64,000 bases of DNA from Candidatus Lindowbacteria bacterium RIFCSPLOWO2_12_FULL_62_27 (lineage in GTDB: Bacteria > Lindowbacteria > 2-12-FULL-62-27), in contig MFPR01000004.1 in the NCBI GenBank assembly GCA_001784175.1, positions 1 to 64,000 on the forward strand, written 5' to 3'. The translations under genes were made by a program, and so were the position numbers. Of the stretch, positions 2,464 to 62,580 are shown one piece after another (position 1 is the stretch's first letter; each line of letters opens with the position of its first letter). Under the pieces are notes generated by a model. The model did no database searches and had not been told where the DNA came from. It was given only the letters and a program-made list of their open reading frames with translations.

Positions 2464-2483
2464 GCGCCGCACGCGAATGCCTT

Positions 2484-3526: not shown

Positions 3527-3931
3527 ATGGCCATGCAGTTGACACCGGTAGAACTTGTGGAGTATCGACGGGATCTCAAGGACCGCATCTGCTCGATTTG
3601 CCGCAAGTTCGGCTACGATGACGTGTGCGGGGTGGGAGCGGAAGGCGAATGTCCCTTTGATGTGCATCTCGCCCGGCTGGTCGACGCCGTTTTGTCGACG
3701 CCCCGGAGCAACCTGGTCGCCGATTACGTGCCGAAAATCCGCGAGTTGGTCTGCGCCTCGTGCCCGAACCAGAACGAGCAGGGCGTCTGCAAGTCGCGCG
3801 ACCGGGCCTACTGCGGCCTCGACAGCTTCCTCGTGCTCGTCGTCCAGACCATCGAGGACACGTACGACCGGCTGCACGCACGACCGGCCGCATCCAGCCA
3901 ACGGGAGACGCTCAGACAGAACGTGGCTTAG
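3527..3931 (+). CDS. small protein with duplicated C-x2-C-x8-C-x7-C motif
   Basis: 134 residues, no signal peptide or membrane helix seen. Two copies of exactly C-x2-C-x8-C-x7-C occur at residues 22-42 and 76-96, each followed by a hydrophobic helix, so the protein is an internal duplication and each half probably binds a metal or Fe-S cluster. I do not recognise a named family. The ATG at 3527 follows AAAGGAG closely; a second in-frame ATG at 3533 has better spacing. It is transcribed away from the bc operon, so it may be a regulator or partner of that respiratory complex, but this is only positional. Confidence 0.7.
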   Translation: MAMQLTPVELVEYRRDLKDRICSICRKFGYDDVCGVGAEGECPFDVHLARLVDAVLSTPRSNLVADYVPKIRELVCASCPNQNEQGVCKSRDRAYCGLDSFLVLVVQTIEDTYDRLHARPAASSQRETLRQNVA

Positions 3932-3976
3932 CCGTGTAACAAAATGAACATTTGGCCGGGGATATTCACGCGCGTA

Positions 3977-4513
3977 CTAACCGGTTGGGTATCTCTCAAG
4001 ATACTTCAGAACGGCCCGTTCAACCGCCGACGGGGACAGGTTCGGATATTTCTGATAGATCTCTTTTGGAATCCGGCCCAGCAGGCTTTTCATCCGTTCA
4101 GGGACCACCAGACCCGAACGGATCAGGCTGTCCGCATCCCGCAGATCCTTTTCAAACCCGCGGACGACCTTCGATAAAAATTGCCCGTAGGGATCGTAGT
4201 GATAAAAACTGACGTTCTGCAGCGTCAGGATATGGACATGACGGTCGTCCGATCCCGGAAGGGCCGGAACAAAATCGGCCGGGCTTGCCAGTTCGATGTT
4301 GATATTGAGTTTCTCCTTGATGGCCTGCACGTCCCGCAAAACGTCTTCGCGATCCACAGACAAATCGACGTCCAATGTGCTTTCCCGCCATCCCATTTCG
4401 ACGGCGGTGCCTCCTCCGGTGATGTAGATCCGGTAATGGCCGCGCGTCGGCGCCGAGGCCGCGATGGCCCGCATGAACTTCTTGAGGCCCGACTTGTCCA
4501 GCGCATTTCTCAT
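3977..4513 (-). CDS. nucleotidyltransferase-like protein (DUF6036-like)
   Basis: 178 residues. The N-terminal part has GHYRIYITGGGTAVEMGW...STLDVDLSVD, a pattern like the minimal nucleotidyltransferase fold (GG followed by D-x-D). Such DUF6036-like proteins are often paired with a small upstream partner, as here: its ATG overlaps the stop of the upstream gene (ATGA at 4510-4513). A toxin-antitoxin or genome-stabilising role is possible but not shown. Convergent with the Cys-motif gene that ends at 3931. Confidence 0.65.
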   Translation of the reverse strand: MRNALDKSGLKKFMRAIAASAPTRGHYRIYITGGGTAVEMGWRESTLDVDLSVDREDVLRDVQAIKEKLNINIELASPADFVPALPGSDDRHVHILTLQNVSFYHYDPYGQFLSKVVRGFEKDLRDADSLIRSGLVVPERMKSLLGRIPKEIYQKYPNLSPSAVERAVLKYLERYPTG

Positions 4514-5467: not shown

Positions 5468-6079
5468 CTACCGGCAGACCGTCAAACGGCGGGCGGGCGG
5501 CGGGCGGCGCGCTTGCCGTTCAAACGACGCCGGATCGTTCAGATTCCGGAACGTGGCCAGCTCTGGATCCAAGTCCCGGACCCGGCGATCGTCCAAAATG
5601 GCGGGAAACCCGGACACGAAAAGATTCTCCTGGATGGACAGCACGCCGTACGAGAACGAGTCCGCGACCGCGTCCAGCAGATCCGTGGAGAAAATCAGCG
5701 GAAACGGCCGCAGCCTCCGGTCGGCCTCGCAGACGACCACATCGCCCGGCGTCGCGATCATGACCCGAAGCAGTCGCGGCGAAAGGAACGGCTGGTCGCA
5801 GGCCGTGATGAGGACCCGGCGGGTGGCGGCATGCCGGAGCGCGGCATGGACGCCGGCCAGGGCGCATCGGTAGGGCATGGCGTCCCGCGCGACTGCCAGT
5901 CCGAGCGACTCATATTTTTTGGGGCACTTGGCGACCAGAAACGGATCCGTTCCCGTTACGCGTTTCAAAATCCCCGCAATGAAGAGCGCCATGGGCCTGC
6001 CACGGATGGGCAGGAGGGCCTTGTCACTCCCCATCCGGCGGGACAGCCCGCCGGTCAGGATGGCCGCGGAAATCGTCAT
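5468..6079 (-). CDS. mobA: molybdenum cofactor guanylyltransferase MobA
   Basis: 203 residues. Transfers GMP from GTP to Mo-molybdopterin to make the guanine dinucleotide cofactor of DMSO-reductase-family enzymes. The nucleotidyltransferase signature LTGGLSRRMGSDKALL is at residues 8-23, and CDQPF (the metal-binding Asp motif) is at about residue 111. Its ATG overlaps the stop of mobB. This window encodes NapA, an IdrA/AioA-type enzyme and an NXR/Nar-like enzyme, all expected to need bis-MGD, which explains the location. Confidence 0.9.
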   Translation of the reverse strand: MTISAAILTGGLSRRMGSDKALLPIRGRPMALFIAGILKRVTGTDPFLVAKCPKKYESLGLAVARDAMPYRCALAGVHAALRHAATRRVLITACDQPFLSPRLLRVMIATPGDVVVCEADRRLRPFPLIFSTDLLDAVADSFSYGVLSIQENLFVSGFPAILDDRRVRDLDPELATFRNLNDPASFERQARRPPPARRLTVCR

Positions 6080-46014: not shown

Positions 46015-46587
46015 TCATGGCCTCGCCTCCAACTGCGACACCTGATATCCGGTTGCGTTGATCGCCTCTTCGATCCGCGGGCGACCCACCCTGGCCGGAT
46101 CGAACCGGACCGTCACGCGGCCGGCCTTTGAGTTGGCGTCGACGTACAAAACTCCGGGCAGTTTCTGAAGCTGGGTTTTCAGCGCCACCTCGCACGTGAA
46201 GCACACCATCCCGTCAACCCCAATCACAGCGACCTCGCCGGCCGGCTGAGTCTGGGTCGCGCCCGATCCCGCGCGCATGTGATGGGTCCAGACGTTCAAC
46301 ACCAGAAAAAACGCCAACACCGCGCTTGCGCCCATGAGCACCCCGCGGGTCTTGCGCGGCGTCGACAGATCGCAGCCTGTTTCACATGCGGTTTTTGATT
46401 CTTTGCGATGCCGCATCCATCCGGCGGTCAACATCACAGCGGCAATCGCCAGCCACACCCAATGATACTTGCCGAAAAACGCCGCCAGTCCCACTCCGCC
46501 CAGCCCCAGCATGACCGCCACCAGCGGTCCGACACAACAGACCGACGCAAAAACAGACGACAGAATGCCCAGCCGCGACGATTTCAT
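46015..46587 (-). CDS. MerT-like metal transporter with fused C-terminal HMA domain
   Basis: 190 residues. MerT-type helices with the vicinal pair C17-C18 (ASVCCVGPL), a cytoplasmic CETGC segment, a further helix, then a heavy-metal-associated domain with GMVCFTC (C129, C132). This joins the MerT channel and the MerP carrier in one chain, as in MerTP-type proteins. Imports Hg(II) for reduction or moves another soft metal. Overlaps the CopZ-like gene by 4 bp. Confidence 0.85.
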   Translation of the reverse strand: MKSSRLGILSSVFASVCCVGPLVAVMLGLGGVGLAAFFGKYHWVWLAIAAVMLTAGWMRHRKESKTACETGCDLSTPRKTRGVLMGASAVLAFFLVLNVWTHHMRAGSGATQTQPAGEVAVIGVDGMVCFTCEVALKTQLQKLPGVLYVDANSKAGRVTVRFDPARVGRPRIEEAINATGYQVSQLEARP

Positions 46588-47126
46588 GATGTCGTCACGC
46601 CCTTCGCTTTGCGCAACCAATCGAGCGCCGCTCGAACCACCTGCCCGACATTTCCGAGACAACACGTTCCCTGCGGGTTCCTGGTCTCGCAGGCGCAGAG
46701 GCCCGCTTTCACCTTCTGTTTGATGTCCTCCAGCACCGTGCTCTTGCCCGTCCCCGCAATTTCCGCCGCAATCGACCGCCGCGTATGGTTGAAACAGTAG
46801 CAGGCCGGAACGTCCGGCCCGGCGTCTTTTTGAAAGACCGGCGACCGAATTTCGCCCGTACGTACAGCAGTGCCGTCGCCATTGAAATACACAACCTCGC
46901 AATCCGCCGACGCGCAGAAAAAGAAACCGCTCGGCGATCCCCGTTTCTCGATGAGACCCGGATTCGCCAGAGCATGGACTGTCTCCCGCCCCACCCGTTT
47001 TCCGTTCTTGCCGCACAGAAAACAGGAAAGTTTATTGTCACCCGATGCGGCTGTTTTCGATTCGCCGGGGTCGGGCATATCCTGCGGCGAAGGACAACAT
47101 CCTCCTGTCATTTTGAGGAATTTCAT
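46584..47126 (-). CDS. CopZ-like metal-binding protein with BFD-type Cys domain
   Basis: 180 residues. N-terminal GGCCPSPQ and CFLCGK, then FFCASADCEVVYF and CYCFNHT...CACETRNPQGTCCLG, the Cys pattern of the CopZ N-terminal family (zinc and [2Fe-2S] binding, BFD-like). No signal. In the MerR operon its role is likely cytoplasmic metal trafficking between the MerT-type carrier and a reductase or sink. Start at 47126 overlaps the merR stop. Confidence 0.82.
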   Translation of the reverse strand: MKFLKMTGGCCPSPQDMPDPGESKTAASGDNKLSCFLCGKNGKRVGRETVHALANPGLIEKRGSPSGFFFCASADCEVVYFNGDGTAVRTGEIRSPVFQKDAGPDVPACYCFNHTRRSIAAEIAGTGKSTVLEDIKQKVKAGLCACETRNPQGTCCLGNVGQVVRAALDWLRKAKGVTTS

Positions 47127-47636: not shown

Positions 47637-48371
47637 ATGGAGAAGCTGACGAGCGTGGCCGTCATTGTCCCGGCGCTGAATGAGGAGCTGTCGCTGGGGT
47701 CCGTCCTGGAGGATATCCGGGCGGTGTTGGTGTCGCGTGTGATCGTCGCGGACAATGGGAGCGTGGATCGCACCGCGGATGTGGCGCGCGCGGCCGGTGC
47801 GGAGGTGGTGTCCGCGCCGCGGCGGGGATACGGGTCGGCGTGTTTGGCGGGAGTGGCGGCGCTGAAGGACGAATCGATGGTTGTCTTCATCGACGCCGAC
47901 GGTTCCTCCGATCCCGCCGAGATGCCGGCGCTGATCGCGCCCATTGAGCGAGGCGATGCGGATTTCGTGATCGGCTCGCGCAAACTCGGCCGGGTCGAAC
48001 CCGGCGCGATGTCCCTTCCGGCGCGTGTCGGGAACCGGCTGGCGCCTTTTTTGATTCACGTCATCTGGGGATTTCGGTATACCGACCTCGGGCCGTTTCG
48101 CGCCATCCGCGTCGATGCCCTGCGGCGGCTCGGCATGCAGGATCCCGACTACGGCTGGACGGTCGAGATGCAGATCAAGGCCGTTCGGCACGGACTGAAA
48201 ATCGTGGAAGTGCCCGTGACGTGGCGAAACCGGCGCGGCGGCGCGTCCAAGATCAGCCGGACGGTTCGCGGCGTCGTGGGGGCGTCGTGCAAAATCATCT
48301 GGACGATTCTAAACTACGCCATCGACGACCGCCGCGCCGGAGACGAAGCGCGACATGGACGAGGCCTATGA
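47637..48371 (+). CDS. family 2 glycosyltransferase (polyprenyl-phosphate sugar transferase-like)
   Basis: 244 residues. GT-A fold with [19 protein letters not shown] and the D-x-D motif [10 protein letters not shown], then [13 protein letters not shown] and [12 protein letters not shown], typical of dolichyl/polyprenyl-phosphate mannosyl- or glucosyltransferases. No membrane tail. Its 3' end overlaps the convergent ArsC-Acr3 gene by 77 bp. A membrane transferase that could use its product lies at 50338. ATG at 47637 chosen after GGGAGG; 47625 is possible. Confidence 0.85.
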
Positions 48372-49815
48372 GAACCGGCACCTCGACGAGCGGGCCGATG
48401 ACGGCGGCGAAGGCGGCGCCGGAATTGATTCCGAACACGGCAATGGCGACCGCAATGGCCAATTCGAAATTGTTGCTGGCGGCTGTAAAGGAAAGGGTCG
48501 CAGTTTTCGCGTAGTCGGCGCCCGCCAACTTGCACATCCAGAAACTGACCAGAAACATCGAGACAAAATAGATCACGAGCGGAACGGCGACGCGAAGCGC
48601 GTCCATCGGAAGTTGAACGATCAGATTGCCTTTCAGGCTGAACATCACCATGATCGTGAAGAGCAGAGCGATGAGCGTAATCGGGCTGATCCTGGGAATG
48701 AAACGGGCGTGATACCATTCCTTCCCCCTCGCCCGGATCAGAACGAATCGCGTCAGGATTCCGGCCATGAACGGAATCCCGAGGTAAATGAACACGCTTT
48801 CGGCAATTTGTCCGATGCGAACGTCCACAACGCTGCCTGACAGGCCGAACAGCGGCGGCAAGACGGCGATGAAGAACCACGCATAGAGGCTGTAGAAGAT
48901 TACCTGGAAGATGCTGTTGAACGCCACCAGACCCGCGCAGTATTCAGTGTTCCCGCCGGCCAATTCGTTCCAGACAATGACCATCGCGATGCAGCGCGCC
49001 AATCCGATCATGATCAGTCCGGTCATGTACTCGGGACGATCGCGCAGAAAGACGACGGCGAGCAGGAACATCAGGATGGGACCCACGATCCAGTTCTGAA
49101 CGAGAGAAAGGCCGAGAACCTTTTTGTTTCGGAAAACGTCGCCCAGTTCCTCGTATCGCACTTTGGCCAGCGCCGGATACATCATGAGGATGAGGCCAAA
49201 TGCGATGGGAATATTTGTTGTACCCGCCTGAAAGCTGTTCATAAACATCTCCGCACCGGGGAAGAAACGCCCGATTGCGATTCCCATGCCGACCGCGAGA
49301 AAAATCCAAAGGGTCAGGAAACGATCCAGAAACGAAAGCCGGCCGACGACGGTCTGTGAGTTCCCTCTTCGGCCGCTTTCGAGGTTCACCATGCATTCGG
49401 GCATTGTCTCCACAAACGCGCGGATTTCGTCCCGGACCCGGCGGTAATGACCCAGCGCATCTTCATCGCTCCGGGCGTCCTTTGCCAGTTTCGGAGGATC
49501 GTCGAACCCTCGATGGACGACCTTCGCTTGTCGAGGAAAGACCGGGCAAGTCTCGTGGGCGTGTGCGCAGACCGTCACGACATAATCGAATTCGATTCTC
49601 GCCAGTTCATTCAGCGTCTTGGATGTGTGGCCGCTGATATCGATGCCCGCTTCGGCCATCACCCGGACGGCGTTTGGATTCAACCCGTGCCTCTCGACGC
49701 CCGCCGAATAGGCTTCGATTTCGCTTGATTTGAGCGCCTTGACCCACCCTTCCGCCATCTGGCTGCGGCAGGAGTTGCCCGTGCACAAAAAAAGCACCCT
49801 GAGTTTGTCCGTCAT
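48295..49815 (-). CDS. ArsC-Acr3 fusion: arsenate reductase joined to arsenite efflux permease
   Basis: 506 residues. Residues 1-135 are a thioredoxin-coupled Ars[10 protein letters not shown] (C11, R17) and [11 protein letters not shown] (C83, C90). After a linker, residues about 160-485 form the Acr3 permease ([35 protein letters not shown]). Arsenate is reduced at the N-terminal domain and arsenite exported by the membrane domain of the same chain. The last 20 residues are Arg-rich because the gene runs 77 bp into the end of the convergent glycosyltransferase. Four bases after arsR. Confidence 0.92.
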
Positions 49816-49819
49816 CCGT

Positions 49820-50161
49820 TCATCCCTTTTTTGTCGGACAGCGCGCCCCGGAAAGGCGTTTGAGGTCGCGCTTGATGCCCGGATGACGCCCGAGGCATTC
49901 GCGCAGACATCGTTGCATGAATTTCACCAGCAACCCTTGAGGCCGGACCAAACGGTAGTGCATCCAGGTGCCCTCACGCCGGCACTCGACGAACCCGGCC
50001 GACTTCAGGATGCCCAAATGTCTGGATATCTTGAAATCGGCCTCCCCCAAAGCCCCGGCCAGAGCGCACACGCAGGTCTCCCCGTGGGCGGCCAGAAGGG
50101 CCGCCAGCCGCAAGCGCGTCGGTTCTCCAAGACTCCTGAGGAGACCGGCCTCGTCTTTCAT
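49820..50161 (-). CDS. arsR: ArsR-family arsenic-responsive repressor
   Basis: 113 residues. Winged helix with [13 protein letters not shown] and ETCVCAL, whose C-V-C motif is the As(III) site of E. coli-type Ars[19 protein letters not shown] is the recognition region. ATG at 50161. First gene of the arsR-(arsC-acr3) operon; the operator lies directly upstream. Confidence 0.92.
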
Positions 50162-50170
50162 GCCCAACTG

Positions 50171-50228
50171 CTATATGCATATCTGCGCATATATGCATAT
50201 AATAGCCGACGGCAGGCGAGGCTGTCAA
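50171..50228 (-). promoter_or_regulatory. arsR promoter and operator
   Basis: On the minus strand -35 TTGACA (50228-50223), 18-bp spacer, -10 TATTAT (50204-50199). Immediately downstream, TATATGCATAT (50172-50182) and ATATGCATATA (50191-50201) form perfect 11-bp inverted arms that are themselves near-palindromes, a typical ArsR site placed to block the start of transcription. It overlaps the -10 box. Confidence 0.85.
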
Positions 50229-50337
50229 GTCACAATATGATATTCTGCGGTGAGCGCTTCGATGGAATGGAGGAATTGAAAAACGTGCGGAAACATTTGC
50301 CGGCCCGGACGCCCACGTCACGCGGGTCGTGAAACGG

Positions 50338-51825
50338 ATGCTGTTGTTTCTCGGATGTTCGATGCTTTCCGTCTATGCGCTCATGGCCTGGACGGCCGCC
50401 GGAATCGGCGAACGCTCGGCCGCCGTGTTGCGGTCCATCCTTCCGCACTTCCTTCATCCGACCATCGGCCGGTGGGAGAACGGCTTCGCCCGATTTTACG
50501 ACCTACCCAACAGCGCTGTTCCCATCGGAACTTTTCTTGCCTTGCTCGCCGCCGCCTTCGTCCTCTACGTCGCCGCGGTCCATGTCATCGCACCCTCCGT
50601 CAAGCGGCGCATCCGGCGCCGCTCCGGGTACGACGACATCCCTGTCGTCGTCAAATCGCGGGATCGATCCGATTCCCTGAAACTCATCCTCGTCTTCGGT
50701 GTCGCGTTCCGGCTCGTCCTGTTTCCGACGCCGCTCATCCTCGAGAACGACCTCTATCGCTATCTCTGGGAGGGCAAAGTCGCGGCGGCCGGGATCAGCC
50801 CCTACGCCCATGCGCCCCGCGAGGCTCTCTGCGATCCGTGTGAAACGGATGTAGGACTTCGATTGTCCGGTCTGCGATCCGAGTCGTCACAAAGCGAAGC
50901 CGTCTTCGGACGCATCGGCCGAAAAGATGTTCCGGCCGTCTACCCGCCGGTTTCGATGGGGTTTTTCTCGCTGGTGGCCGCGATCCGGCCCGATTCGGAA
51001 TTGGCGATGAAAGGCTTGATATTCGGATTTGACGTCGCCACGATGATTCTGCTGGCTGTGATTTTGAAGGCGATGAACCGTCCGCCCGGCGCGGTCCTCA
51101 TCTACGCCTGGTCGCCGCTCGTCATCAAGGAATTCGCCAACAGCGGCCATCTCGACGCCATCGGTATATTTTTCCTGATGCTTGCGTTTTGGTTCTGGAT
51201 TCGACGGAGTCGGTTCGGCGTGATCGCCGGCTGGACGGGCTCGATCCTGTCCAAATATTTCGCCGTGGTGCTGGCGCCCATCTTCTGGCGGCGAATCGGG
51301 GTTACCGGCCTGATTGCGGCTGGAATCGTATCGGTGTTGTCATTCGTCCCGTTTCTTCTGATGGACACGGGCGGCATGGCGGGAATTTCCAACACGTTTT
51401 CAGGGTTCGTGACCTTCGGGCGGGAATGGAAATTCAACGCGGGTCTCTTTCGGATCATCGAGTTTGTCGTCGGAACACCAACGGCCAAATTCATCGTCAC
51501 CGCGGTGATTCTCGGTCTGATGGCGCTTCTTGCGCGAAACAGATTCGACAGCCCCCGCCGTGCGGCCCAAGCCGTCCTCATCCTGCTCTTTGCGTCGCTC
51601 GCGCTCTCCCCGATCGTCAATCCCTGGTATGTGACATGGATCGTGCCTTTCCTCTGTCTGACGATTTCTCCCGCCATGTTGGCGCTCACGGCGCTGGTCA
51701 ACGTCTCATACACCGGCTTCATCGACAGCCGGGAAATCCTCTGCCTGACAGCTCTCGAATGGGGTATCGTCTTACTGTTGGTGATCCGCGAAATTCGCCG
51801 ATGGAGATATTTATTCGGCCCATGA
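50338..51825 (+). CDS. polytopic membrane glycosyltransferase (GT87/mannosyltransferase-like)
   Basis: About 495 residues with ten or more membrane helices. [13 protein letters not shown] (acidic motif after the second helix), [30 protein letters not shown] and [11 protein letters not shown] are hallmarks of DUF2029/GT87-like or PIG-M-like mannosyltransferases using lipid-linked sugars. ATG at 50338 or GTG at 50329. It may use the product of the glycosyltransferase at 47637. Starts divergently from arsR. Confidence 0.82.
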
Positions 51826-51844
51826 TGAAAGCCGAGGTGTTGAG

Positions 51845-54058
51845 ATGACATCCCCAAGAATTGCCGGTTCGCTGCTCATCGTATTTTGTGCCGGATTCGG
51901 TCAATCGGCGTTCGCAAAGGACGTGGATACCTCAACGGCGATTTCCATGTCCTCCAAACCGTCCACGCGCAAACCCCCTGCGAAATACAACCGCCTCATC
52001 CACGAAAAAAGCCCGTATCTTTTGCAGCACGCGCACAATCCCATCTGGTGGTATTCGTGGGGCGACGAGGCGCTTGCGGCGGCCAAACGAGAAAACAAAC
52101 CGATCTTTCTCTCCATCGGCTATTCCACCTGCTACTGGTGCCATTTCATGGAGAAGGATTCCTTTGAAAAAGAGGACGTGGCGGCGGTTCTCAACGAGCA
52201 TTTCATCTCGATCAAGGTCGACCGCGAGGAGCGGCCGGACGTGGACAACATCTACATGACGGCGCTCGTGTCGATGACGGGAAGCGGCGGCTGGCCGATG
52301 TCGATGTTTTTGACGCCGGAAGGCCAACCCTTTTTCGGCGCGAGCACCATTCAGCACGACCGATTCATCGGGATTCTTGGACAAATCGCGGCGGTGTGGA
52401 AGAACGAGTCGGCGAAAATCCGTGAAAGCGGCGAGCGGGTCACCTCGGCGCTGCGGCAATATCTGAATCCCGCGGGCGGCCGGGTCAGCGTCTCCGACGC
52501 CCCAAGTGCCGCGAGCCCTGCGAGCGCCCGGCGGGACATCGGCGAGGAGGCTTTGATCTCATTTTACAACACGGCCGAAAGCCAGTTCGACAAAACGTAT
52601 GGCGGCTTCGGCGGCGGAAACAAATTTCCGAGGCCACACGTGTTCATGGCCCTGCTTCGCTACCACCGGCGCGCCGGCGATCCACAAGCCCTCAAAATTG
52701 TGGCCGAAACCTTGAAGGCCATGGCGCGGGGCGGCATCCATGATGTTCTGGTCGGCGGATTTCACCGTTACAGCGTGGACGGCAAATGGGAGGTGCCCCA
52801 TTTTGAGAAAATGCTCTACGACAACGCCGGACTCATCGTCGCGTATCTGGAGGCGTACCAGGTAACGAGGGACCCGGAGTTCGCGCGGATCGCCCGAAAG
52901 ACGATGGACTGGGTACTGGCCGAGATGACGCATCCCGCCGGCGGTTTCTACAGCGCGCAAGACGCCGGCGATTTCGGCGAGGAGGGCGACTACTACGCGT
53001 GGCGGTACGACGAGGCGCAGCAGATCCTTACGCCGGAGGAATTCGAGCATGTCCGGAAATTTTTCCGCCTGACTCCCGAAGGCAACTTCGACCACAACCG
53101 CAACGTCATCCACGTTCCGGCCGACGTTTCCTTTCCGGGCCCGGCCGCCGATACGCTCTACGCCGCCGCTCATGGCAAACTCCTGGCCATCCGCGCGAAA
53201 CGCGAACGCCCCAGGCTCGATGACAAGGTGCTGGTGGACTGGAACGGACTCATGATTGCGGCGATGGCCCGCGGGTATCAGGTGCTGGGTGATGAGAAGT
53301 ATCTGCGCGCTGCGCAAAGGGCGGCCGGATTCATCCGTAAGAACGTGACAAAAAAAGACGGCAGGCTCCATCGTCGCTGGCGGGAGGGTGAGGCGTCCAA
53401 CCGGGCGGTCGTGAACGACTACGCGTTTTTGATCCACGGCCTGATTGAACTGTACCAATCCGATTTCGATCCGCGTTGGTTTGAATGGGCGATTCAGTTG
53501 CAGGAACTCCAGGACAAGGATTTTTGGGACGAACAAAACGGCGGGTACTTTTTTGACGACGCCAAAGACGCGACGCTCTTGTCCCGCTCTAAAGAATACG
53601 ACGACATGGCGATGCCGTCGGGGAATTCCATTGCGGCGTTGAACCTCCTCCGCCTGGCCGATTTCACCTATGACGACAAATATAAAAAACGCGCCGATGA
53701 CGTCATTCGTTCGGCGGCCGGTCAGGTCGCCAGGTCTCCTTTCGCGTATGCCCAGACGCTGGTCGCTCTGGATTACGCGCTCGATCGGTCCAAGGAAATC
53801 GCCATTGCCGGAAAACTCGACGATGCGCGAACCCGGAAAATCGTCCGCGCCTTGCGTTCAAAGTTCCTGCCCAACAAAGTCGTCGCCGTTTCGGACGGCC
53901 GGAAACCCGCCGCCACGCTTATTTTGCTCGACGGCAAAACGCCGACCCGGGGCGATCCGACGGCCTATGTCTGCGAGGAGGGGGTCTGCCAACTGCCGAC
54001 GACGGACGCCGCAACGGTCCTCAAACAGGCCGAGACGCATGTGCCGATCAAAAAATAA
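51845..54058 (+). CDS. DUF255/YyaL-type thioredoxin-domain protein, exported
   Basis: 737 residues. A signal peptide (cleavage near SAFAKD) is followed by the DUF255 thioredoxin-like domain ([18 protein letters not shown]..., [13 protein letters not shown]) and an alpha/alpha-barrel resembling N-acylglucosamine epimerases ([27 protein letters not shown]). Family activity is unknown. Members are often cytoplasmic; the signal here points to a periplasmic version. Starts 19 bp after the glycosyltransferase. Confidence 0.88.
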
Positions 54059-54059
54059 A

Positions 54060-54075
54060 TGTAAGGCCCATTACA
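54060..54075. promoter_or_regulatory. TGTAA-N6-TTACA palindrome, copy 2
   Basis: TGTAAGGCCCATTACA, 88 bp before the His-rich protein gene. Matches the motif at 44751. Probable operator for an unidentified regulator. Confidence 0.5.
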
Positions 54076-54163
54076 GACGGATCGGGGTCTGACATGATTG
54101 AGTTGGCGATTACAAAGGCTCAATATTGAGCCTTGAAGAAAGAGATTCAGAGGAGGTCCAACC

Positions 54164-54892
54164 ATGTTTTACGGCAGAGGTTTTACGGCGGACAGGGAAG
54201 TCCTGTCCCCAACGCTACAGTCTCAGAAAATTCCAGGAGGGAATTTTCTTCATTACGCGTTGGGGGCGGTTTTGATGGCGTTCGCCCTCATGCTGTTTGG
54301 CGGGCGTATCGCCATGGCGGGGGAACACCCCACGGAGCACCCGAGCGAGCATCCGGCGGCCGGCAAGGCGAAGGCGGAGCATCCGGAACATCCGGCCAAG
54401 ACGGACAAGGCGGGCAAGGCGGAAAAGTCCGTCGGTCTCAGCAAGGAGGATATGGCGGAGGCCATCTCCGGGTATGTTTCCAAGGACGCGGATTTGAAGG
54501 GCGGATATTTTCTGGTGTTTGACAAGGAGTCGGGGCAGCCGCTGGCGCTTACGCTGGAGAAAGTCCACAAGGACCGGCTGTCGAGAGTGGCCAAAGATGT
54601 GTATTTCGCCTGCGCCGATTTCCGGACGCACGACGGCAAGAAGGTCTACGATCTCGATGTGTTCATGCACGGGCCGGACAAGAAGCACCTGAAGGTCACG
54701 GAAATTTCCGTTCACAAGGAGGACGGCGACGCGCGATACGGCTGGGTGGAGAAGGATGGCGTCTGGTCGAAGAGTCCGATCGAGGGAAAGAAGGCGCCGG
54801 AGATGAAGGACTGGAAGGGAAGCGATCACGAGGGCGGATCCTCCGGTGAGCATCCGAAGGAACATCCGAGCGAGCAACCGAAGGGCAAATAG
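54164..54892 (+). CDS. exported protein with EHP repeats at both ends
   Basis: 242 residues. A membrane/signal segment (FLHYALGAVLMAFALMLFGG) is followed by EHPTEHPSEHPA...EHPEHPA and a central globular domain (about 90-200), and the C-terminus repeats EHPKEHPSEQP. The His-rich tails should bind Cu, Ni or Zn. The central domain (SGQPLALTLEKVHKDRLSRVAKDVYFACADFRTHDGKKVYDLDVFM) is not recognised. GGAGG precedes the ATG at 54164. First of a gene string into the transglutaminase-like and DUF547 genes. Confidence 0.7.
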   Translation: MFYGRGFTADREVLSPTLQSQKIPGGNFLHYALGAVLMAFALMLFGGRIAMAGEHPTEHPSEHPAAGKAKAEHPEHPAKTDKAGKAEKSVGLSKEDMAEAISGYVSKDADLKGGYFLVFDKESGQPLALTLEKVHKDRLSRVAKDVYFACADFRTHDGKKVYDLDVFMHGPDKKHLKVTEISVHKEDGDARYGWVEKDGVWSKSPIEGKKAPEMKDWKGSDHEGGSSGEHPKEHPSEQPKGK

Positions 54893-54904
54893 GGTGGATT
54901 GATT

Positions 54905-55912
54905 TTGAGCAGGAGAAAATTGGCATGGGGCGCCGTTGCCGGACTTGTGTTTTTGTCCGGCATGGCGCTCTGGCCCGCTTTTCAGCGCGCATCGCTTCGG
55001 CCTGAGGAGAATTCCACGCGTGAGGTGCGATTTCGATATCGGGTGACGATTCCCTCCGTCCCATCCTCCGCGCGGCGCGTGATGGTTTGGGCGCCCATGC
55101 CGTTTACGGACACGTATCAAACACTGAACGGCTTTGAGGTCAGGGGCCCGGCAACCTATACCATCGCGGAAGAACCCGAATACGGAAACCGCTTTCTGGT
55201 GTTCGATCTTTCTCCCGCCGCAACATCCAAGCGGGACTCGATATTGGTGGAGATCGACTATCGAGTGAGCCGGCGCAGGTACAGGGTGGTTTCAGGGACG
55301 AATGCGCACCCTCCGAACGCGAACACGGATAAATTCCTCCGGCCGTCGGGGCTGATTCCCATCGACGGCCGGATTGCCGCCGAGGCGGCGACGGTGGCCG
55401 GTCGATTCGATGATCCGATGCGGCAGGCGCGGGCGCTGTATGATCACATCGTTGAGAGCGTGCTGTACGACAAGAGCGGCCATGGTTGGGGAAAAGGCGA
55501 CGCGGTTTACGCGTGTGATTTCCGAAAAGGCAACTGCACCGATTTCCATTCTCTGTTCATCGGCGAGTCGCGGGCGCTCGGGATTCCCGCCCGGTTCGTG
55601 ATGGGATTTCCGTTGCCGGCGCGTCAGAAGAACGGTTCGATTCCGGGCTATCACTGCTGGGCCGAATTTTTTGTCGAGCCGTACGGCTGGGTTCCGATTG
55701 ACGCCTCGGAAGCGCAGAAGGACCGGTCGCGTCAGGAGGAACTATTTGGCGGCCTGGATGCCAACCGGATCGGATTCACCATCGGCCGGGACATTCGCCT
55801 GCCGGGCGCCTCGTCGGGTCCGCTCAACTACGTCATCTACCCGCACGTCGAAATCGACGGCCAGGCCTATTCGAATGTCCGCGCCGAATTCGAGTTTTCG
55901 GACGCAAATTAA
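54905..55912 (+). CDS. transglutaminase-like exported protein
   Basis: About 335 residues. N-terminal membrane segment then a transglutaminase-like (papain-fold) domain with the Cys-His-Asp triad GNCTDFHSLF, GYHCWAEFF and VPIDASEAQ. Probably a peptidase-like or cross-linking activity outside the cytoplasm. Only TTG codons (54899 or 54905) give a complete start; AGGGTGG precedes them. It begins 6-12 bp after the EHP-repeat gene. Confidence 0.8.
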   Translation: MSRRKLAWGAVAGLVFLSGMALWPAFQRASLRPEENSTREVRFRYRVTIPSVPSSARRVMVWAPMPFTDTYQTLNGFEVRGPATYTIAEEPEYGNRFLVFDLSPAATSKRDSILVEIDYRVSRRRYRVVSGTNAHPPNANTDKFLRPSGLIPIDGRIAAEAATVAGRFDDPMRQARALYDHIVESVLYDKSGHGWGKGDAVYACDFRKGNCTDFHSLFIGESRALGIPARFVMGFPLPARQKNGSIPGYHCWAEFFVEPYGWVPIDASEAQKDRSRQEELFGGLDANRIGFTIGRDIRLPGASSGPLNYVIYPHVEIDGQAYSNVRAEFEFSDAN

Positions 55913-56012
55913 TCTTTTCGATTTCGTAATGCCGCTTACGGCGTTGGAATGCAATCTGCGGTAACCTTCAAGTAGGATGGCAGACGACGAAATGGGTTCG
56001 AGGAGGACTGTC

Positions 56013-56801
56013 ATGAACAATCATCGATATGCCGGATGGATACTTGGAATGCTCATCCTGACCGCCGGCGTGCCGACAGCATTCGCCGTGGAAAATCTCC
56101 ATTCCCCGTGGACAGGTCTTCTTCAAAAATACGTTTCTCAAAACGGGCTTGTCGCTTATTCGTCATGGAAGAAGAACGATACAGACGTTCGGAAACTCGA
56201 ACGCTATCTGCAGGCAATGTCGCCCGTGAATGCGGATTCCTTGTCCCGGCCGCAGGCGCTTGCGTATTACCTGAACCTTTACAACGCCTCGATGGTCAAG
56301 CTGGTGCTGGATCATCATCCGATCCCGAGCGTGAAAAAGATCGGAGGCTTTGGCGGGCCGTGGAAGGTTCAATTTATCGAAACGCCGAAAGGTCTGATCT
56401 CCCTGAATGACATTGAACACGGCATCCTTCGGAAAAAATTCAAGGAGCCGCGCATTCATTTCGCGCTGGTCTGCGCTTCGACCAGTTGTCCGTCGCTTCG
56501 ACTGGAGGCCTACGAGGGCCATCGAATCGACACGCAATTGGCGGACCAGGAGAAAACTTTTCTGATGGACACCGCCAAAAATCGATGGCGGATTGCCGCG
56601 TCCGGACTTCTGTCCAAAGAGGACCGGCTCGAGTTGGAGCTTTCCTCCATATTCAAATGGTTCGGCGAGGATTTCGGAGGCGAAGCAGGCGTGGTTCGGC
56701 GCGTCAGGCCCTTTCTGGATCCAGCCGGGCGCGCGCTCCTGGATCAATCCCGATATGACGTTGATTATCTTGACTACGATTGGTCACTAAACGAAAAGTG
56801 A
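56013..56801 (+). CDS. DUF547-family exported protein
   Basis: 262 residues with a signal peptide (cleavage near AFAVEN). LAYYLNLYNASMVKLVLDHHP, ISLNDIEHGILR and HFALVCASTSCPSLRLEAY are defining DUF547 motifs (a family of unknown activity). GGAGG precedes the ATG at 56013. It ends 8 bp before the radical SAM-ArsM gene, so the two are probably co-transcribed. Confidence 0.87.
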   Translation: MNNHRYAGWILGMLILTAGVPTAFAVENLHSPWTGLLQKYVSQNGLVAYSSWKKNDTDVRKLERYLQAMSPVNADSLSRPQALAYYLNLYNASMVKLVLDHHPIPSVKKIGGFGGPWKVQFIETPKGLISLNDIEHGILRKKFKEPRIHFALVCASTSCPSLRLEAYEGHRIDTQLADQEKTFLMDTAKNRWRIAASGLLSKEDRLELELSSIFKWFGEDFGGEAGVVRRVRPFLDPAGRALLDQSRYDVDYLDYDWSLNEK

Positions 56802-56809
56802 GGCAGGCC

Positions 56810-59314
56810 ATGAACGAAGAAACAGTCCTTCACGCAATGCCATACATCAAGGAAATCGTTGATGACACCGTATTTCTTCTCGCGCCGTCCGTTCCAAACT
56901 GGATTGCCACAGATGAGCGCGGCGCGAAGATTCTCTCATTCGTGGATGGTCGCCGCACGGCTGGCCGGATCACGGATCGTTATTGCCGTGATATGAGCAT
57001 CGACCGAACGCGCGGGTGGCTCCATGTCCACACATTTCTCAAGGACGCGCTTCGCCATCAATTTGTCTCCCCGAATCCCGTCACGCCGCAGGTCTACAAA
57101 GGCCGCGCCGCATATCTCGAACCCACGGCGCTTCGGGAACTCTGGATTCACACGAACAATTCCTGCAACCTGGCCTGCACGCACTGTCTTGTTCGCTCCG
57201 GCCCGAACGGTGACGCGGGGCCTGAAACGCGGAAGATTCTGAAATGGATTGACGAGGGTCTCGCGCTCGGTGTCGAGCGATTTTATTTCACCGGCGGCGA
57301 GCCGATGGCGCGGAAGGATTTCTGGGAACTGGTCGAATATGTGACCTCGCTGGCCGAGATGGCAGTGCTGACCAACGGAACGCTTATTTCAGGCGAGCGG
57401 CTGGAGCGCCTCCGCCAGTGCGATCCGAACCTTTTGAAACTCCAGATCAGCCTCGACGGTTCGACCCCGGAAACCAATGATCCGATCCGAGGCCCCGGAA
57501 GTTTTCGCCGCGCGGTGGAGGGAATCCGAAATGCGGTCTCCGCCGGATTTTACCCAACGCTGACAACGGTTGTGACGCGCCAAAACGTGGATGATCTGTC
57601 CGGCATCGTACGGCTTGCGGCTGACCTGCGCCTCACAGCCGTTCATTTCATGTGGATGCATCTCAAAGGCCGGGCGGCCGAAAATAATCAGATGGCGGCC
57701 GGCATTCTGGAAATGATTGAAGCGGTGGAAAAAGCCCGCCGGACCGCCGCTGAACTTGGCGTCTATGTGGACAACATCGAAGCCGCAAAGACACGGATGG
57801 GCGGGCCCGCCGGGCTTAAAATGGATCTTTCCAACGCCGCCTGGGAAAGCCTCTGCATCTACTCGGACGGAGGAGTCTATCCGTCCGCCGCTACTGTTCA
57901 GGTGGCCGAGCTTCGGCTGGGCGACGCCAATCGCGCATCACTGAAAGAGATTTGGTTGACATCGCCCGTCGCGCGAAAAATGCGCGAGGCGAGCGTCGAG
58001 CAAATGGATCAATGCAGGGGATGCCGTTACAAATTCCTCTGCGGGGGCGGTGACATTGAGCACAGGTATTTTTTTGGACGAAACGGACACGCGGATAGCC
58101 GCCGGAACGGTACCGCCTTCATTGGCGACGATCCCTACTGCGGTCTCTACCAGAGTCTCATCGGAACGGCGATGCGCGAAATGGCCCGGCGCGGCGATCA
58201 ACGGAACGGTCCCAAGACCGGCTTTGACGCCCCGACCGTCTTTGCCGGAATGGGCGATGTTCGGACGCATGATTTTGGACTCCGGAACGGCCACGCCGCC
58301 GAGCCTGCGGATAAAATACGAGTTGCGGTCAAACATTCCAACTGCGTGCTGGCCTTCGATCTCGACACGTATCGCCGACCCGTTCGGGAATTTTACGGCG
58401 AAGCCGCCGAAAAACCGCAGGCCGATCTTTGCTGTCCGATCAAATACAACTCCGAATTTCTCGACCACATCCCGAAAGAGGCCATTGAAGTTTTCTACGG
58501 TTGCGGCGGTCCCATGCAGGAGGCGGACATCCGCGAAGGCCAGACAGTGGTCGATCTCGGATCGGGCGGCGGCATCGACTGTTTCATCGCCGCCAAACGC
58601 GTTGGACCGGCCGGGCGGGTGATCGGCGTCGACATGACGGACAAGATGCTGAATCTGGCCGGGCAGAATCGCGTCAAAGTCGCCGCGAATCTCGGCTATG
58701 ACAACGTCGAATTTCGAAAAGGATTTCTTGAATCGGTTCCCGTCGATGACAAATCCGCCGATCTGGTCACCTCGAACTGCGTCGTCAATCTGTCGCCGGA
58801 CAAGCGCAAGGTTTTCCGCGAAATCTGGCGGATCCTCAAGGATACGGGAACGGTTCTCATTTCCGATATCGTGACCGAGCGGGAATTGCCCCTGCACCTC
58901 GCCGTGAACAACCGGCTGGTGGGCGAATGCATCGGCCAGGCTCTGACCGAGGAGCAATTTCTCGCCTATCTCGAGCAGGCCGGATTCTACGGCATCACCG
59001 TCACCAAGAAGTTTTTCTGGAAGGATGTGGAAGGTCATCCCGTCTATTCCATCACCGTGCGCGGGCAAAAATTCGAAAAAACGAAAGGGTGCGTCTTTAT
59101 CGGTCAGCAAGCGATTTATCACGGCCCGTTCAAGTCCGTGACGGACGAGGAAGGGCACCTTTTTCCAAGAAACGAGCCTGTCGAAATCTGCACCGACACC
59201 GCCGCCAAACTCTCCGCGCCGCCTTACAACGCCTTTTTCACGGTTACGTCGCCGGACGGCAAGGTCGAGAGCGCGTGTTGTCTGGCCGGAACCGACGGCA
59301 AATCCTGTTGCTGA
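56810..59314 (+). CDS. PqqD-like/radical SAM-SPASM/ArsM methyltransferase fusion
   Basis: 834 residues in three parts. (1) 1-85: PqqD-like domain (WIATDERGAKILSFVDGRRT). (2) About 105-470: radical SAM with C119-x3-C123-x2-C126 and a SPASM-type end (CRGCRYKFLCGGG...C). (3) About 510-834: arsenite S-adenosylmethionine methyltransferase-like domain with DLGSGGGIDCF and the ArsM cysteines C541/C542 (CCPIKYN), C657 (SNCVVNLSPDK) and C707 (GECIG). It ends in SACCLAGTDGKSCC, a Cys-rich tail. Likely methylates As(III) and then adds a radical-chemistry step, perhaps to an organoarsenical. The exact product is unknown. Confidence 0.85.
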   Translation: MNEETVLHAMPYIKEIVDDTVFLLAPSVPNWIATDERGAKILSFVDGRRTAGRITDRYCRDMSIDRTRGWLHVHTFLKDALRHQFVSPNPVTPQVYKGRAAYLEPTALRELWIHTNNSCNLACTHCLVRSGPNGDAGPETRKILKWIDEGLALGVERFYFTGGEPMARKDFWELVEYVTSLAEMAVLTNGTLISGERLERLRQCDPNLLKLQISLDGSTPETNDPIRGPGSFRRAVEGIRNAVSAGFYPTLTTVVTRQNVDDLSGIVRLAADLRLTAVHFMWMHLKGRAAENNQMAAGILEMIEAVEKARRTAAELGVYVDNIEAAKTRMGGPAGLKMDLSNAAWESLCIYSDGGVYPSAATVQVAELRLGDANRASLKEIWLTSPVARKMREASVEQMDQCRGCRYKFLCGGGDIEHRYFFGRNGHADSRRNGTAFIGDDPYCGLYQSLIGTAMREMARRGDQRNGPKTGFDAPTVFAGMGDVRTHDFGLRNGHAAEPADKIRVAVKHSNCVLAFDLDTYRRPVREFYGEAAEKPQADLCCPIKYNSEFLDHIPKEAIEVFYGCGGPMQEADIREGQTVVDLGSGGGIDCFIAAKRVGPAGRVIGVDMTDKMLNLAGQNRVKVAANLGYDNVEFRKGFLESVPVDDKSADLVTSNCVVNLSPDKRKVFREIWRILKDTGTVLISDIVTERELPLHLAVNNRLVGECIGQALTEEQFLAYLEQAGFYGITVTKKFFWKDVEGHPVYSITVRGQKFEKTKGCVFIGQQAIYHGPFKSVTDEEGHLFPRNEPVEICTDTAAKLSAPPYNAFFTVTSPDGKVESACCLAGTDGKSCC

Positions 59315-59345
59315 ACGAGGCCGCCGGATTGGTCGCAAAATAAAT

Positions 59346-60857
59346 ATGGAGAAGATCGACCTTCGGCCGGACGACGAACATAACCGCACGCTTCTGAAAA
59401 ACGCCCGACCGCCGGACTGGATCAATCCCACGCCCGCGGCCAAATACCATCTCGTCGTGATCGGCGCCGGCACGGCGGGACTTGTGACCGCGGCCGGCGC
59501 GGCCGGACTCGGCGCGAAAGTTGCGCTTGTGGAAAAGCACCTCATGGGCGGCGATTGCCTCAACTACGGATGCGTCCCCTCCAAGGCCCTCATTCGTTCA
59601 GCCCGTGCCGCGGCGGCCGCGCGGAGTGCCGCGTCGTTCGGCGTCCAAACGGGCAACGTCTCCGTCAATTTCCCGGCCGTCATGGAACGAATGCGCCGCC
59701 TGCGCGCCGACATCAGCCCGAACGACTCGGCCACGCGTTTCAGGAAACTGGGTGTGGATGTGTTCATCGGCGCCGGCAAGTTCACCGGCTCCGACACGGT
59801 TCAGGTGGGAGATAAAACGCTCCGTTTTAAGAAAGCCGTCATCGCCACCGGCGCCCGCGCCTCGGCGCCGCCTGTTCCCGGATTGAATGAGGTCCCTCAT
59901 CTGACGAACGAAACGCTTTTCTCGCTGACCGGCCTCCCGAAACGTTTCGGCGTTATCGGCGCGGGTCCGATCGGCTGCGAGATGGCTCAAAGCTTCTCGC
60001 GTTTCGGTTCGGAGGTATATCTCGTCGAAGCATTGCACGGCATCCTGCCGCGCGAAGACCGGGATGCCGCCGGCATTGTGCAGGCTGCCCTTGCGCGCGA
60101 CGGAGTCAAATTGTGGTGTTGCGGTAAAGGCCTGAAACTTTCAAAAACGGAGGGCGGGGGTCGGATGCAAGTCGAATCCCACGGAACAAACTACGACGTG
60201 GTGGTGGACCAGCTTCTTGTGGCCGTCGGCCGTGCGCCTAACGTCGAGGGATTAAGACTGGAAACCGTGGGTGTCGAATTTGACAAAAAGGGCGTGAAAG
60301 TGAACGACCGCCTCCAAACAACCAACCCCCGCATCTTCGCCTGCGGCGACGTCTGTTCACCCTATCAGTTCACCCACGCGGCGGATTTCATGGCGCGAAT
60401 CGTAATCCAAAACGCCCTGTTCCTCGGCCGCGCCCGCGTTGGGGCGTTGACGATCCCCTGGTGCACCTACACCGATCCCGAATTGGCCCACGTGGGACTC
60501 TCCGAAACGGAAGCAAAGACCAAAAACATCCCCATCCAAACTTTTACGCAAGAACTCAAAGACGTAGATCGGGCCGTATTGGACGGCGAGCCTGAAGGCC
60601 TGGTCAAAGTGCATGTCGAACCCGGCGGCAAGCGAATCCTTGGCGCAACCATCGTCGCCGGCCATGCAGGTGAAATGATCGACGAACTGACGCTTGCGAT
60701 GAATGCCGGCCTCGGCCTTTCCGCGATCGCAAAAACCATCCATCCCTACCCCACACAGGCCGAAGCCATCCGGCGCACCGGCGATGCGTGGAACCGGACG
60801 CGGCTGACACCGGTGGCGAAAAAGCTTCTGAATCTCTGGCTGAAGATCAGCGGTTAG
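59346..60857 (+). CDS. MerA/dihydrolipoamide dehydrogenase-like flavoprotein disulfide reductase
   Basis: 503 residues. FAD fold (HLVVIGAGTAGLVTAAGA), redox disulfide C71-x4-C76 (GGDCLNYGCVPSKA), NAD(P) fold (FGVIGAGPIGCEMAQ), FAD-binding FACGDV and the dimerisation domain with the catalytic His (HPYPTQAE). The C-terminal vicinal Cys pair of mercuric reductase is absent and there is no N-terminal HMA domain, so it is a MerA-like oxidoreductase rather than a proven mercuric reductase. It follows the ArsM fusion, so it may reduce thiols for arsenic metabolism. Confidence 0.87.
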   Translation: MEKIDLRPDDEHNRTLLKNARPPDWINPTPAAKYHLVVIGAGTAGLVTAAGAAGLGAKVALVEKHLMGGDCLNYGCVPSKALIRSARAAAAARSAASFGVQTGNVSVNFPAVMERMRRLRADISPNDSATRFRKLGVDVFIGAGKFTGSDTVQVGDKTLRFKKAVIATGARASAPPVPGLNEVPHLTNETLFSLTGLPKRFGVIGAGPIGCEMAQSFSRFGSEVYLVEALHGILPREDRDAAGIVQAALARDGVKLWCCGKGLKLSKTEGGGRMQVESHGTNYDVVVDQLLVAVGRAPNVEGLRLETVGVEFDKKGVKVNDRLQTTNPRIFACGDVCSPYQFTHAADFMARIVIQNALFLGRARVGALTIPWCTYTDPELAHVGLSETEAKTKNIPIQTFTQELKDVDRAVLDGEPEGLVKVHVEPGGKRILGATIVAGHAGEMIDELTLAMNAGLGLSAIAKTIHPYPTQAEAIRRTGDAWNRTRLTPVAKKLLNLWLKISG

Positions 60858-61038: not shown

Positions 61039-62580
61039 ATGAATCGGAACGTGACTCTGGCTTGCGTTTTGACGATTTTCGTCTCCGCCTGCGGGCAGGC
61101 GCCCTCTCGCGATACTGGGCAGAAAGTTTACTCCGCCTCCTGCGCGCCGTGTCACGGCGCATCCGGCAAAGGCGACGGTGAGCTTGCGGCGTTTTTGTAT
61201 CCCCGGCCGCGCGATTTTACGCGGGGCACATACAAGATCCGGTCGGTCATGGACGCAACGCCGGCCGACGCGGACCTTCGGCGCGTGATCGAGCACGGCA
61301 TGTCGGGGTCTGCGATGCCGGCGTGGAAGGGGCGGCTTTCCGATCAGGAAATATCGTCCGTCCTTTCCTATATTAAGACGCTTGCGCCGGACGCCTTTTC
61401 AACGCCGCCGACCCAGCCGGTCAGGGTGGGCACGCCTCCGGACCCTACGCCCGAACGGCTCTCCTCCGGCAAACTCGTCTACCAAAAAATGCAGTGCGCC
61501 AAATGCCACGGCGAGCGCGGCGTGGGGGACGGGCCGTCGGCTGCGGCCCTCAAGGACGATCTGGGGATGCCCATCCCGCCGGCCGATTTCACGCTCGGGA
61601 TTTTCAAGGGCGGCGACGATCCGCGCGATATCTACACGCGATTTACGACCGGCATGCTCGGCACGCCCATGCCGAGTTTCGGAGACTTGCTGACCGACGA
61701 CGACCGCTGGAACCTCACGCTCTACGTGAAATCGCTTGCGACGGAATCGATCCTCGACGACGAACCGCAGACCATCGTGGCGGCGATGACCTCCAAAATC
61801 ACCGACAACCCCTACGACCCGGTCTGGACCAAACTTCCACCCGTGCGCGTCGCGCTCCGGCCGCTCTGGCAGCGGGCGCGGTACGCAAGGCTCGCGGAAG
61901 TGCGTGCGGCGCACGACGGCAAAACGCTTGCGGTTCATCTCGTCTGGTATGATCCGAGCGAGGACGCGAGCAACGTCGAAGTCGACCGGTTCACGGACGC
62001 GGCGGCCGTGCAGTTTCCGCTGTCGACCACGCCGGGATTTTTCGGCATGGGCGCCGTCCTGTCGCCGTCCAATATATGGCATTGGAAGGCGGACATTCAG
62101 GCGGACATCGATCTCCGAAAGGCGGACCACCGGCGCCGGGACGTCGAAACCGCCTATCCCAACATGGCGGCCGACGCGTATCCGTTTTTGGGCAAGGATT
62201 GGAGCGGCGCCGCGCATGACGACCGGCGGCGGCCCGCAAAAGATTATGACGACCCCGCGTTCCTCACGGCCTGGGCGGCCGACAATCCCCTCGCCGATCC
62301 CGAACGGAAAAGTCCCTGCACCGAATACAACGCCGAAGGACCCGGCAGCCTGACGGTCCAGCCGCATGGCCATCAGAGCATCAACGGCGCCGGCGTCTGG
62401 CGCGGCGGCGTCTGGACGCTCGTGCTCCTGCACGAGCTGCACTCCGGCGACGAGATGGACGCGATGTTCACGATGGGCGACGAGCGGCCGGTGGCGTTCG
62501 CGATCTGGGACGGCGCCGCCGGCGACCGCGACGGCCAGAAGGTCGTGTCGCAGTGGCACAAGATGGTGCTGCGGCCGTGA
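61039..62580 (+). CDS. cytochrome c / haem-b (ethylbenzene-dehydrogenase-like) gamma subunit
   Basis: 513 residues. Lipoprotein signal (FVSACGQ), two cytochrome c domains (CAPCHG with PRDFTRG, CAKCHG with PADFTLG) and a C-terminal EB_dh-type haem-b domain (NPYDPVWTKLPPVRVAL..., LSPSNIWHWKADIQAD, GVWRGGVWTLVLLHEL). Such a fused chain is the membrane-linked electron output subunit of type-II molybdoenzymes such as periplasmic NXR/Nar and relatives. It precedes a chaperone and the catalytic subunit with 4-bp overlaps. The 180 bp upstream hold no gene. Confidence 0.87.
   Translation: MNRNVTLACVLTIFVSACGQAPSRDTGQKVYSASCAPCHGASGKGDGELAAFLYPRPRDFTRGTYKIRSVMDATPADADLRRVIEHGMSGSAMPAWKGRLSDQEISSVLSYIKTLAPDAFSTPPTQPVRVGTPPDPTPERLSSGKLVYQKMQCAKCHGERGVGDGPSAAALKDDLGMPIPPADFTLGIFKGGDDPRDIYTRFTTGMLGTPMPSFGDLLTDDDRWNLTLYVKSLATESILDDEPQTIVAAMTSKITDNPYDPVWTKLPPVRVALRPLWQRARYARLAEVRAAHDGKTLAVHLVWYDPSEDASNVEVDRFTDAAAVQFPLSTTPGFFGMGAVLSPSNIWHWKADIQADIDLRKADHRRRDVETAYPNMAADAYPFLGKDWSGAAHDDRRRPAKDYDDPAFLTAWAADNPLADPERKSPCTEYNAEGPGSLTVQPHGHQSINGAGVWRGGVWTLVLLHELHSGDEMDAMFTMGDERPVAFAIWDGAAGDRDGQKVVSQWHKMVLRP

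Follow-up and report, generated by a model that had tools for sequence, protein, structure and literature searches.

The arsenic-related locus

The window, that is, the whole 64,000-nt stretch of contig MFPR01000004.1 of Candidatus Lindowbacteria bacterium RIFCSPLOWO2_12_FULL_62_27 (assembly GCA_001784175.1) analysed here, carries the following genes and features:

48298..49815, minus strand: adjacent arsenic-resistance gene, fusion of an ArsC-type low-molecular-weight phosphatase with an arsenite efflux permease of the ACR3 type (SBF) (Pfam LMWPc 1.1e-19, residues 7-100; SBF 2.1e-60, residues 206-401)
49820..50167, minus strand: repressor of the ArsR/SmtB family carrying the metal-binding motif CVC (in ETCVCAL) (Pfam HTH_5 2e-7; NCBIfam HTH_metalloreg 77.5 bits, cut-off 55)
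50172..50201, no strand: near-perfect 30-bp palindrome TATATGCATATCTGC/GCATATATGCATATA (14 of 15 pairs) between arsR and the gene that starts at 50329, candidate ArsR operator
50329..51825, plus strand: large membrane protein, first gene of the plus-strand array (no Pfam match)
51845..54058, plus strand: DUF255/Thioredox_DsbH protein (Pfam PF03190 3.2e-65), kept in the relative L009
55977..56801, plus strand: DUF547 protein (Pfam PF04784 2.5e-24), recurrent neighbour of the fusion and of ArsS
56810..59314, plus strand: PqqD-like/SPASM radical SAM/ArsM fusion, one 834-aa chain
59346..60857, plus strand: FAD-dependent pyridine nucleotide-disulfide oxidoreductase (PRK06370, MerA-like; NCBIfam NF004991 807 bits, cut-off 620)

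The arsR and arsC/acr3 genes run divergently from, and upstream of, the plus-strand array that contains the fusion gene, the latter being placed between the DUF547 gene and the gene of the MerA-like FAD oxidoreductase. The palindrome is likely to be the ArsR operator and, because the genes from 50329 to 60857 lie on one strand with short gaps between them, their expression as a single arsenic-controlled transcript is plausible. The membrane protein heading the array, which is matched by homologous stretches in the fusion loci L076 and L084 (30% and 26% identity), is probably a glycosyltransferase; the role of the DUF255/Thioredox_DsbH protein in the pathway is uncertain. Other genes of the window are one for an EHP-repeat protein (54164-54892), which is possibly metal-binding and whose only conserved counterpart (81%) is in the close relative; one downstream of the array (61039-62580) that combines cytochrome c domains with an ethylbenzene-dehydrogenase-type heme domain (DMSO reductase type II gamma-like); and, near the ArsC-ACR3 gene on the minus strand (46018-47016), one for a MerT-like membrane protein that carries a heavy-metal-associated domain at its C-terminus.

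Domain architecture of the fusion protein

The fusion is encoded by an intact open reading frame that starts with the ATG at 56810, is free of internal stops and ends with the stop codon at 59314. It is not an assembly artefact, because the same fusion is present in 12 other genomes. The parts of the chain are:

56873..57061, plus strand: PqqD-like domain, residues 22-84 (PF05402, E 0.047 in the window protein)
57155..57616, plus strand: radical SAM core, residues 116-269, with CX3CX2C cysteines C119/C123/C126 (Pfam PF04055 1.7e-24)
57836..58024, plus strand: SPASM domain, residues 343-405, followed by C411 and C444 (Pfam PF13186 1.3e-8)
58367..59221, plus strand: ArsM domain, residues 520-804, with C541/C542, C565, C657 and C707 (NCBIfam NF008823 7.5e-69, and NF038099 over 520-804)
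59270..59311, plus strand: C-terminal Cys tail SACC...SCC, residues 821-834 (from the sequence)

The chain of PqqD-like, radical SAM and ArsM parts described in the first-pass annotation was thus recovered by the Pfam and NCBIfam matches, the PqqD-like part being weak in the window protein and supported by the family. None of the NCBIfam models that cover the chain does so above its own cut-off. Prediction with AlphaFold, with the window protein and one relative as input, gave a mean pLDDT of 29.

PF05402 matches the window protein with 14.5 bits (E 0.047), a weak match given its gathering score of 23.4 bits. It also matches, at E values up to 1, eight of ten N-terminal regions of the family, the best with an E of 2.3e-7. 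The N-terminal profile found the lasso-peptide RRE 5v1u (E 0.02) and PqqCD 5sxy (E 0.63) in the PDB.

In the radical SAM core, the CX3CX2C cysteines are invariant in the 12 homologues. Five of the seven SPASM cysteines are kept in the window protein (C349, C402, C405, C411 and C444), while Ser359 and Asp415 occupy the other two positions, leaving the seven-cysteine motif incomplete. Taking anSME as our guide, we assume that one auxiliary-cluster site (C402, C405, C411, C444) is complete and the other incomplete. In four members (L075, L077, L083 and L084) most of the auxiliary-cluster cysteines are lost, which suggests a divergent chemistry within the fusion family. The closest solved structures found with the family profile for the N-terminal half are the SPASM-type radical SAM proteins SkfB, PqqE and CteB.

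A comparison with ArsS (TIGR04167, the DDMAA synthase), which the first-pass annotation had proposed, separated the two enzymes. The ArsS model matches the fusion with 47.9 bits, against a cut-off of 300 bits, and over residues 3-148 of 303 only. In the tree of the radical SAM domain, 20 ArsS and 12 fusion sequences form two separate groups, each supported at 100/100, with the fusions placed among SPASM proteins. A relationship of the fused radical SAM domain to ArsS was rejected on the basis of these groups, the kinship being that of the superfamily in general, and therefore the same reaction cannot be assumed.

The methyltransferase half is clearly homologous to ArsM by sequence, yet falls outside the curated ArsM models: the arsenite methyltransferase model NF008823 spans residues 536-735 with 232.2 bits, under its cut-off of 263 bits. 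Methyltransf_31 of Pfam matches residues 575-725 (1.2e-31). All of the closest solved structures for residues 508-803 are arsenic methyltransferases, and the ArsM structures 4kw7/4fr0 were found with an E of about 5e-62 over these residues with the family profile and of 2.4e-36 with the single window sequence. The ArsM-type cysteines C565, C657 and C707, whose conservation had been anticipated in the first-pass annotation, are invariant in the 12 homologues, as is C512, and C541/C542 are kept in 10 of them. C565, C657 and C707 align with the cysteines of the YGCG, SNCV and GEC motifs of the solved algal ArsM, which we take to be its C72, C174 and C224. Judged by these residues, the ArsM domain is complete, with all the conserved cysteines, and is predicted to methylate arsenite. 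The fusion is also the only clear ArsM of the window genome, as its Methyltransf_31 score is 114 bits and that of the next match 52 bits.

The Cys tail pointed out in the first-pass annotation is present (SACC...KSCC), but as a special feature it had to be rejected: many stand-alone ArsM proteins end alike, those encoded beside ArsS included, and similar CC or CC...CC endings occur in the ArsM of the ArsS loci L152 (SCCSPDSGCC), L156 and L162.

Distribution of the fusion family

A search with the first 491 residues of the fusion as query was carried out in 386 genomes sampled across bacteria, mostly as single representatives. Full-length fusions were found in 12 of them, belonging to nine families, each in an open frame longer than 830 aa; one further species, G390, carries the fusion beyond this sample. 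Sampling within phyla was thin: the searches reached 3 genomes in the phylum of the window genome, 8 in that of G231 and 2 in that of G290. The nearest relative, L009, from an uncultured groundwater MAG, is 86% identical to the window fusion, both genomes being draft assemblies. In distant members the radical SAM part shows 31-48% identity and the ArsM part mostly 55-63%. A pattern-based scan of genome contigs returned one relative only and a scan of viral contigs none, and no plasmid record covered 80% of the fusion query.

Some members depart from the common layout. L083 (8318-11368) and L084 (12-3101) make up a longer subfamily with an extra C-terminal region, which is DUF5714 in L083 and aligns with it in L084; this subfamily has neither the N-terminal CC of ArsM nor the auxiliary-cluster cysteines. 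The linker between the radical SAM and ArsM parts of L009 (about 5533-5625) holds an in-frame insert, VMPAEAGIQ...DSRFRGNDG, that resembles a dispersed repeat element inside the coding sequence.

Gene neighbourhoods of fusion and ArsS loci

The genes next to the fusion recur in various combinations. In L009 the order is a fused PiT-DUF547 gene, the fusion, VTT/TVP38 and the FAD oxidoreductase. The first of these (2388-4247) joins a PiT-type phosphate transporter in frame to DUF547, which is a separate gene in the window. The neighbours are PiT, VTT and the FAD oxidoreductase in L078, VTT, the FAD oxidoreductase and DUF547 in L080, and PiT and the FAD oxidoreductase in L081. The glycosyltransferases TIGR04282 and TIGR04283, which NCBI names after arsenosugar biosynthesis in a library that assigns such names by genome association, adjoin the fusion in several loci. 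The order is DUF547 - TIGR04283 - fusion - TIGR04282 in L080 and in L184, a second species of the same genus; fusion - TIGR04283 - TIGR04282 - rhodanese - VTT in L084; and fusion - TIGR04282 - VTT - TIGR04283 in L079. The respective TIGR04282/TIGR04283 scores are 197/225 bits in L080, 158/172 in L084 and about 126/211 in L079, and a weak TIGR04282 match adjoins the fusion in L075. The set of DUF547, VTT, FAD oxidoreductase and PiT genes is absent near the fusion in L075, L076, L077, L082 and L083.

The same genes accompany ArsS. DUF547 is found in the fusion loci L009, L080 and L184 and in several ArsS loci; the MerA-like FAD oxidoreductase adjoins the fusion in L009, L078, L080 and L081 and recurs beside ArsS. 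At least one of the FAD oxidoreductase, VTT, DUF547 and PiT genes lies nearby in 12 of the 20 ArsS loci, several of which carry the first three together, and in none of 12 control regions taken from the fusion genomes around distant glycosyltransferase genes. Transglutaminase-like and EHP-repeat genes are probably not core parts, because the only locus besides the window to have them is that of its close relative, L009. All the neighbours listed in the first-pass annotation (DUF547, transglutaminase-like and EHP-repeat proteins and a disulfide reductase) are present; of these, DUF547 and the reductase alone are also found in unrelated fusion loci.

Co-occurrence with arsenosugar-type genes

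ArsS above cut-off was found in 65 of the 386 sampled genomes, 66 having a match at E<=1e-50, and in none of the 12 fusion genomes. TIGR04283 is present in 11 of the 12 fusion genomes, representing all nine fusion families, in 50 of the 66 ArsS genomes and in 32 of the 308 with neither. The difference between fusion genomes and those with neither gives a Fisher p of 8e-10, and fusion and ArsS are mutually exclusive among TIGR04283-positive genomes with a p of 9e-5, while across all genomes the exclusivity alone is not significant (p 0.10); these p-values make the evidence look somewhat stronger than it is, as the sampled genomes are related to each other. TIGR04282 is above cut-off in 9 of the 12 fusion genomes. 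The window genome encodes both glycosyltransferases (150 and 239 bits) on other contigs, outside the locus of the window. In its family, the pair is found in each of the two genomes that carry the fusion; in the third (G001), which is without the fusion, neither exceeds the cut-off. Because fusion genomes are without ArsS and keep TIGR04283, and because the two kinds of radical SAM domain form separate 100/100 groups, the pattern reads, at the level of sequence, as non-orthologous replacement of ArsS and not as descent from it.

Proposed function

A radical SAM enzyme adenosylates arsenic in arsenosugar biosynthesis, according to the passage of PMC12159101 that cites Cheng et al. 2021, and SsArsM and SsArsS are reported to act together (PMC8552651). 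Taking into account that (i) a radical SAM core, a SPASM region and an ArsM domain are joined in one chain; (ii) this chain has arsenosugar-type neighbours; and (iii) ArsS is missing from the genomes that encode it, we propose that the fusion would be a bifunctional, one-chain replacement of ArsM and ArsS at the entry of an arsenosugar-type pathway, a reading that we hold to be reasonably probable. Our confidence leans more slightly towards the wider claim that it represents a second, evolutionarily independent arsenosugar synthase, in which arsenic methylation would be followed, within one polypeptide, by radical adenosylation on a SPASM domain of other than ArsS descent, across several poorly known bacterial phyla.

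ArsM methylates thiol-bound As(III). In the model, As(III) would probably cause ArsR to release expression of the array. Using SAM, the ArsM domain would make dimethylarsenite from thiol-bound As(III); a second SAM molecule would be split by the radical SAM domain to give the 5′-deoxyadenosyl radical. Capture of this radical by dimethylarsenite would create the C-As bond of DDMAA or a close analogue, as with ArsS. The TIGR04282 and TIGR04283 enzymes, encoded elsewhere in the window genome, may then convert the product to an arsenosugar or arsenolipid, while VTT/TVP38 (where present), DUF547 and the FAD disulfide reductase may assist in membrane handling and redox reactions. The PqqD-like domain would probably position or couple both catalytic modules rather than bind a RiPP leader.

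The main doubt concerns the radical chemistry, as a SPASM enzyme need not carry out the reaction of ArsS. It is unlikely, though it deserves weight, that the product is a different organoarsenical, on which the glycosyltransferases would then act; here the radical SAM domain would form some other C-As bond or transfer some other group, such as the 3-amino-3-carboxypropyl group of arsinothricin, or introduce a modification once methylation is complete. The SPASM character of the fused domain, which is not ArsS, and the four members without auxiliary-cluster cysteines would fit such a product, and the radical SAM enzyme ArsL does make another C-As bond (PMC8552651). However, the set of neighbours and the pattern of replacement closely match those of ArsS loci, the annotated neighbours of the fusion include no gene identified as an arsinothricin-type arsQ transporter, and the arsinothricin cluster consists of arsQML and four other genes, without the TIGR04282/TIGR04283 pair (PMC8552651). 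Plain detoxification, with As(III) methylation by the ArsM domain and an accessory or unrelated function for the radical SAM part, appears more doubtful still: it would agree with the divergent arsR-arsC/acr3 genes adjoining the array and with the fusion being the sole clear ArsM of its genome, but radical SAM and ArsM parts remain joined across distant bacteria, with an invariant CX3CX2C motif, and the family tracks the arsenosugar glycosyltransferases.

The peptide-bound arsenic raised in the first-pass annotation would correspond to a RiPP-type system, with the PqqD-like domain recruiting a peptide that the radical SAM part modifies and on which arsenic is bound or methylated. Domains of the PqqD-like and SPASM kinds are characteristic of RiPP maturases, and SkfB and CteB are among the nearest solved radical SAM structures. 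Nevertheless, we regard this as very improbable: the PqqD match is weak, the neighbours are of the arsenosugar type and not of the RiPP type, and a comparison of the 3 kb around the fusion in 12 loci yielded no small ORF that is conserved between any two of them. The broader suggestion, that the locus serves arsenic natural-product formation or detoxification, has good support, and the neighbourhood and co-occurrence, which match those of ArsM/ArsS, together with the divergent arsR-arsC/acr3 genes and the palindrome, narrow it to the arsenosugar type.

If the fusion does the work of ArsM and ArsS, the entry chemistry of arsenosugars would have evolved at least twice, and the second origin would be a built-in two-step enzyme that keeps toxic dimethylarsenite within one protein. 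The fusion would moreover explain arsenosugar-type genomes that are without ArsS, and formation of arsenosugars or arsenolipids would be predicted in lineages missed by ArsS surveys. ArsS and ArsL are the only radical SAM enzymes forming C-As bonds that are named in the sources cited here. Our literature search, whose coverage of subscription journals is incomplete, so that a prior report is possible, returned no earlier description of the fusion.

Comparison with known systems

The PqqD/SPASM maturases (PqqE with PqqD, CteB, SkfB and MftC) share with the fusion the SPASM fold and an N-terminal PqqD-like/RRE domain; the fusion differs from them by its ArsM domain, by the lack of a precursor peptide nearby and by keeping only one auxiliary-cluster site. 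In the bifunctional ArsRM of Brevundimonas, as it is presented in PMC10190100, ArsM is likewise joined to another arsenic-related module, which, judging by the name, would be an ArsR repressor, whereas the partner in the fusion is a radical SAM enzyme.

Stand-alone Rv1681-like radical SAM genes (G061, G202, and a related one with ArsM in G084) encode a core that is among the closest to that of the fusion (38-39% identity over about 160-180 aa) and also adjoin arsenosugar-type genes, but they are short and lack the full SPASM region and the ArsM domain. They may be a possible third type: in L185 (G061) and L187 (G202) such a gene lies directly beside TIGR04282, in L188 (G084) a weak TIGR04282 match, ArsM and radical SAM follow each other as separate genes, and these three genomes have TIGR04283 and neither ArsS nor the fusion.

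In arsinothricin biosynthesis, ArsL and ArsM cooperate as radical SAM enzyme and methyltransferase and make C-As bonds, as is predicted for the fusion, and the arsinothricin ArsM model matches the C-terminal half of the fusion's ArsM domain. Unlike the fusion, ArsL and ArsM are separate genes, SAM cleavage is non-canonical and no arsenosugar glycosyltransferase set is described for them (PMC8552651). The ArsM and ArsS pair resembles the fusion in combining an arsenite methyltransferase with a radical SAM enzyme at the entry step and in its neighbours, DUF547, VTT/TVP38, the PRK06370 oxidoreductase, PiT, TIGR04282 and TIGR04283. The pair consists of two genes, whereas the fusion is one chain, whose radical SAM part is of the SPASM type, has a PqqD-like domain and forms a clade separate from ArsS.
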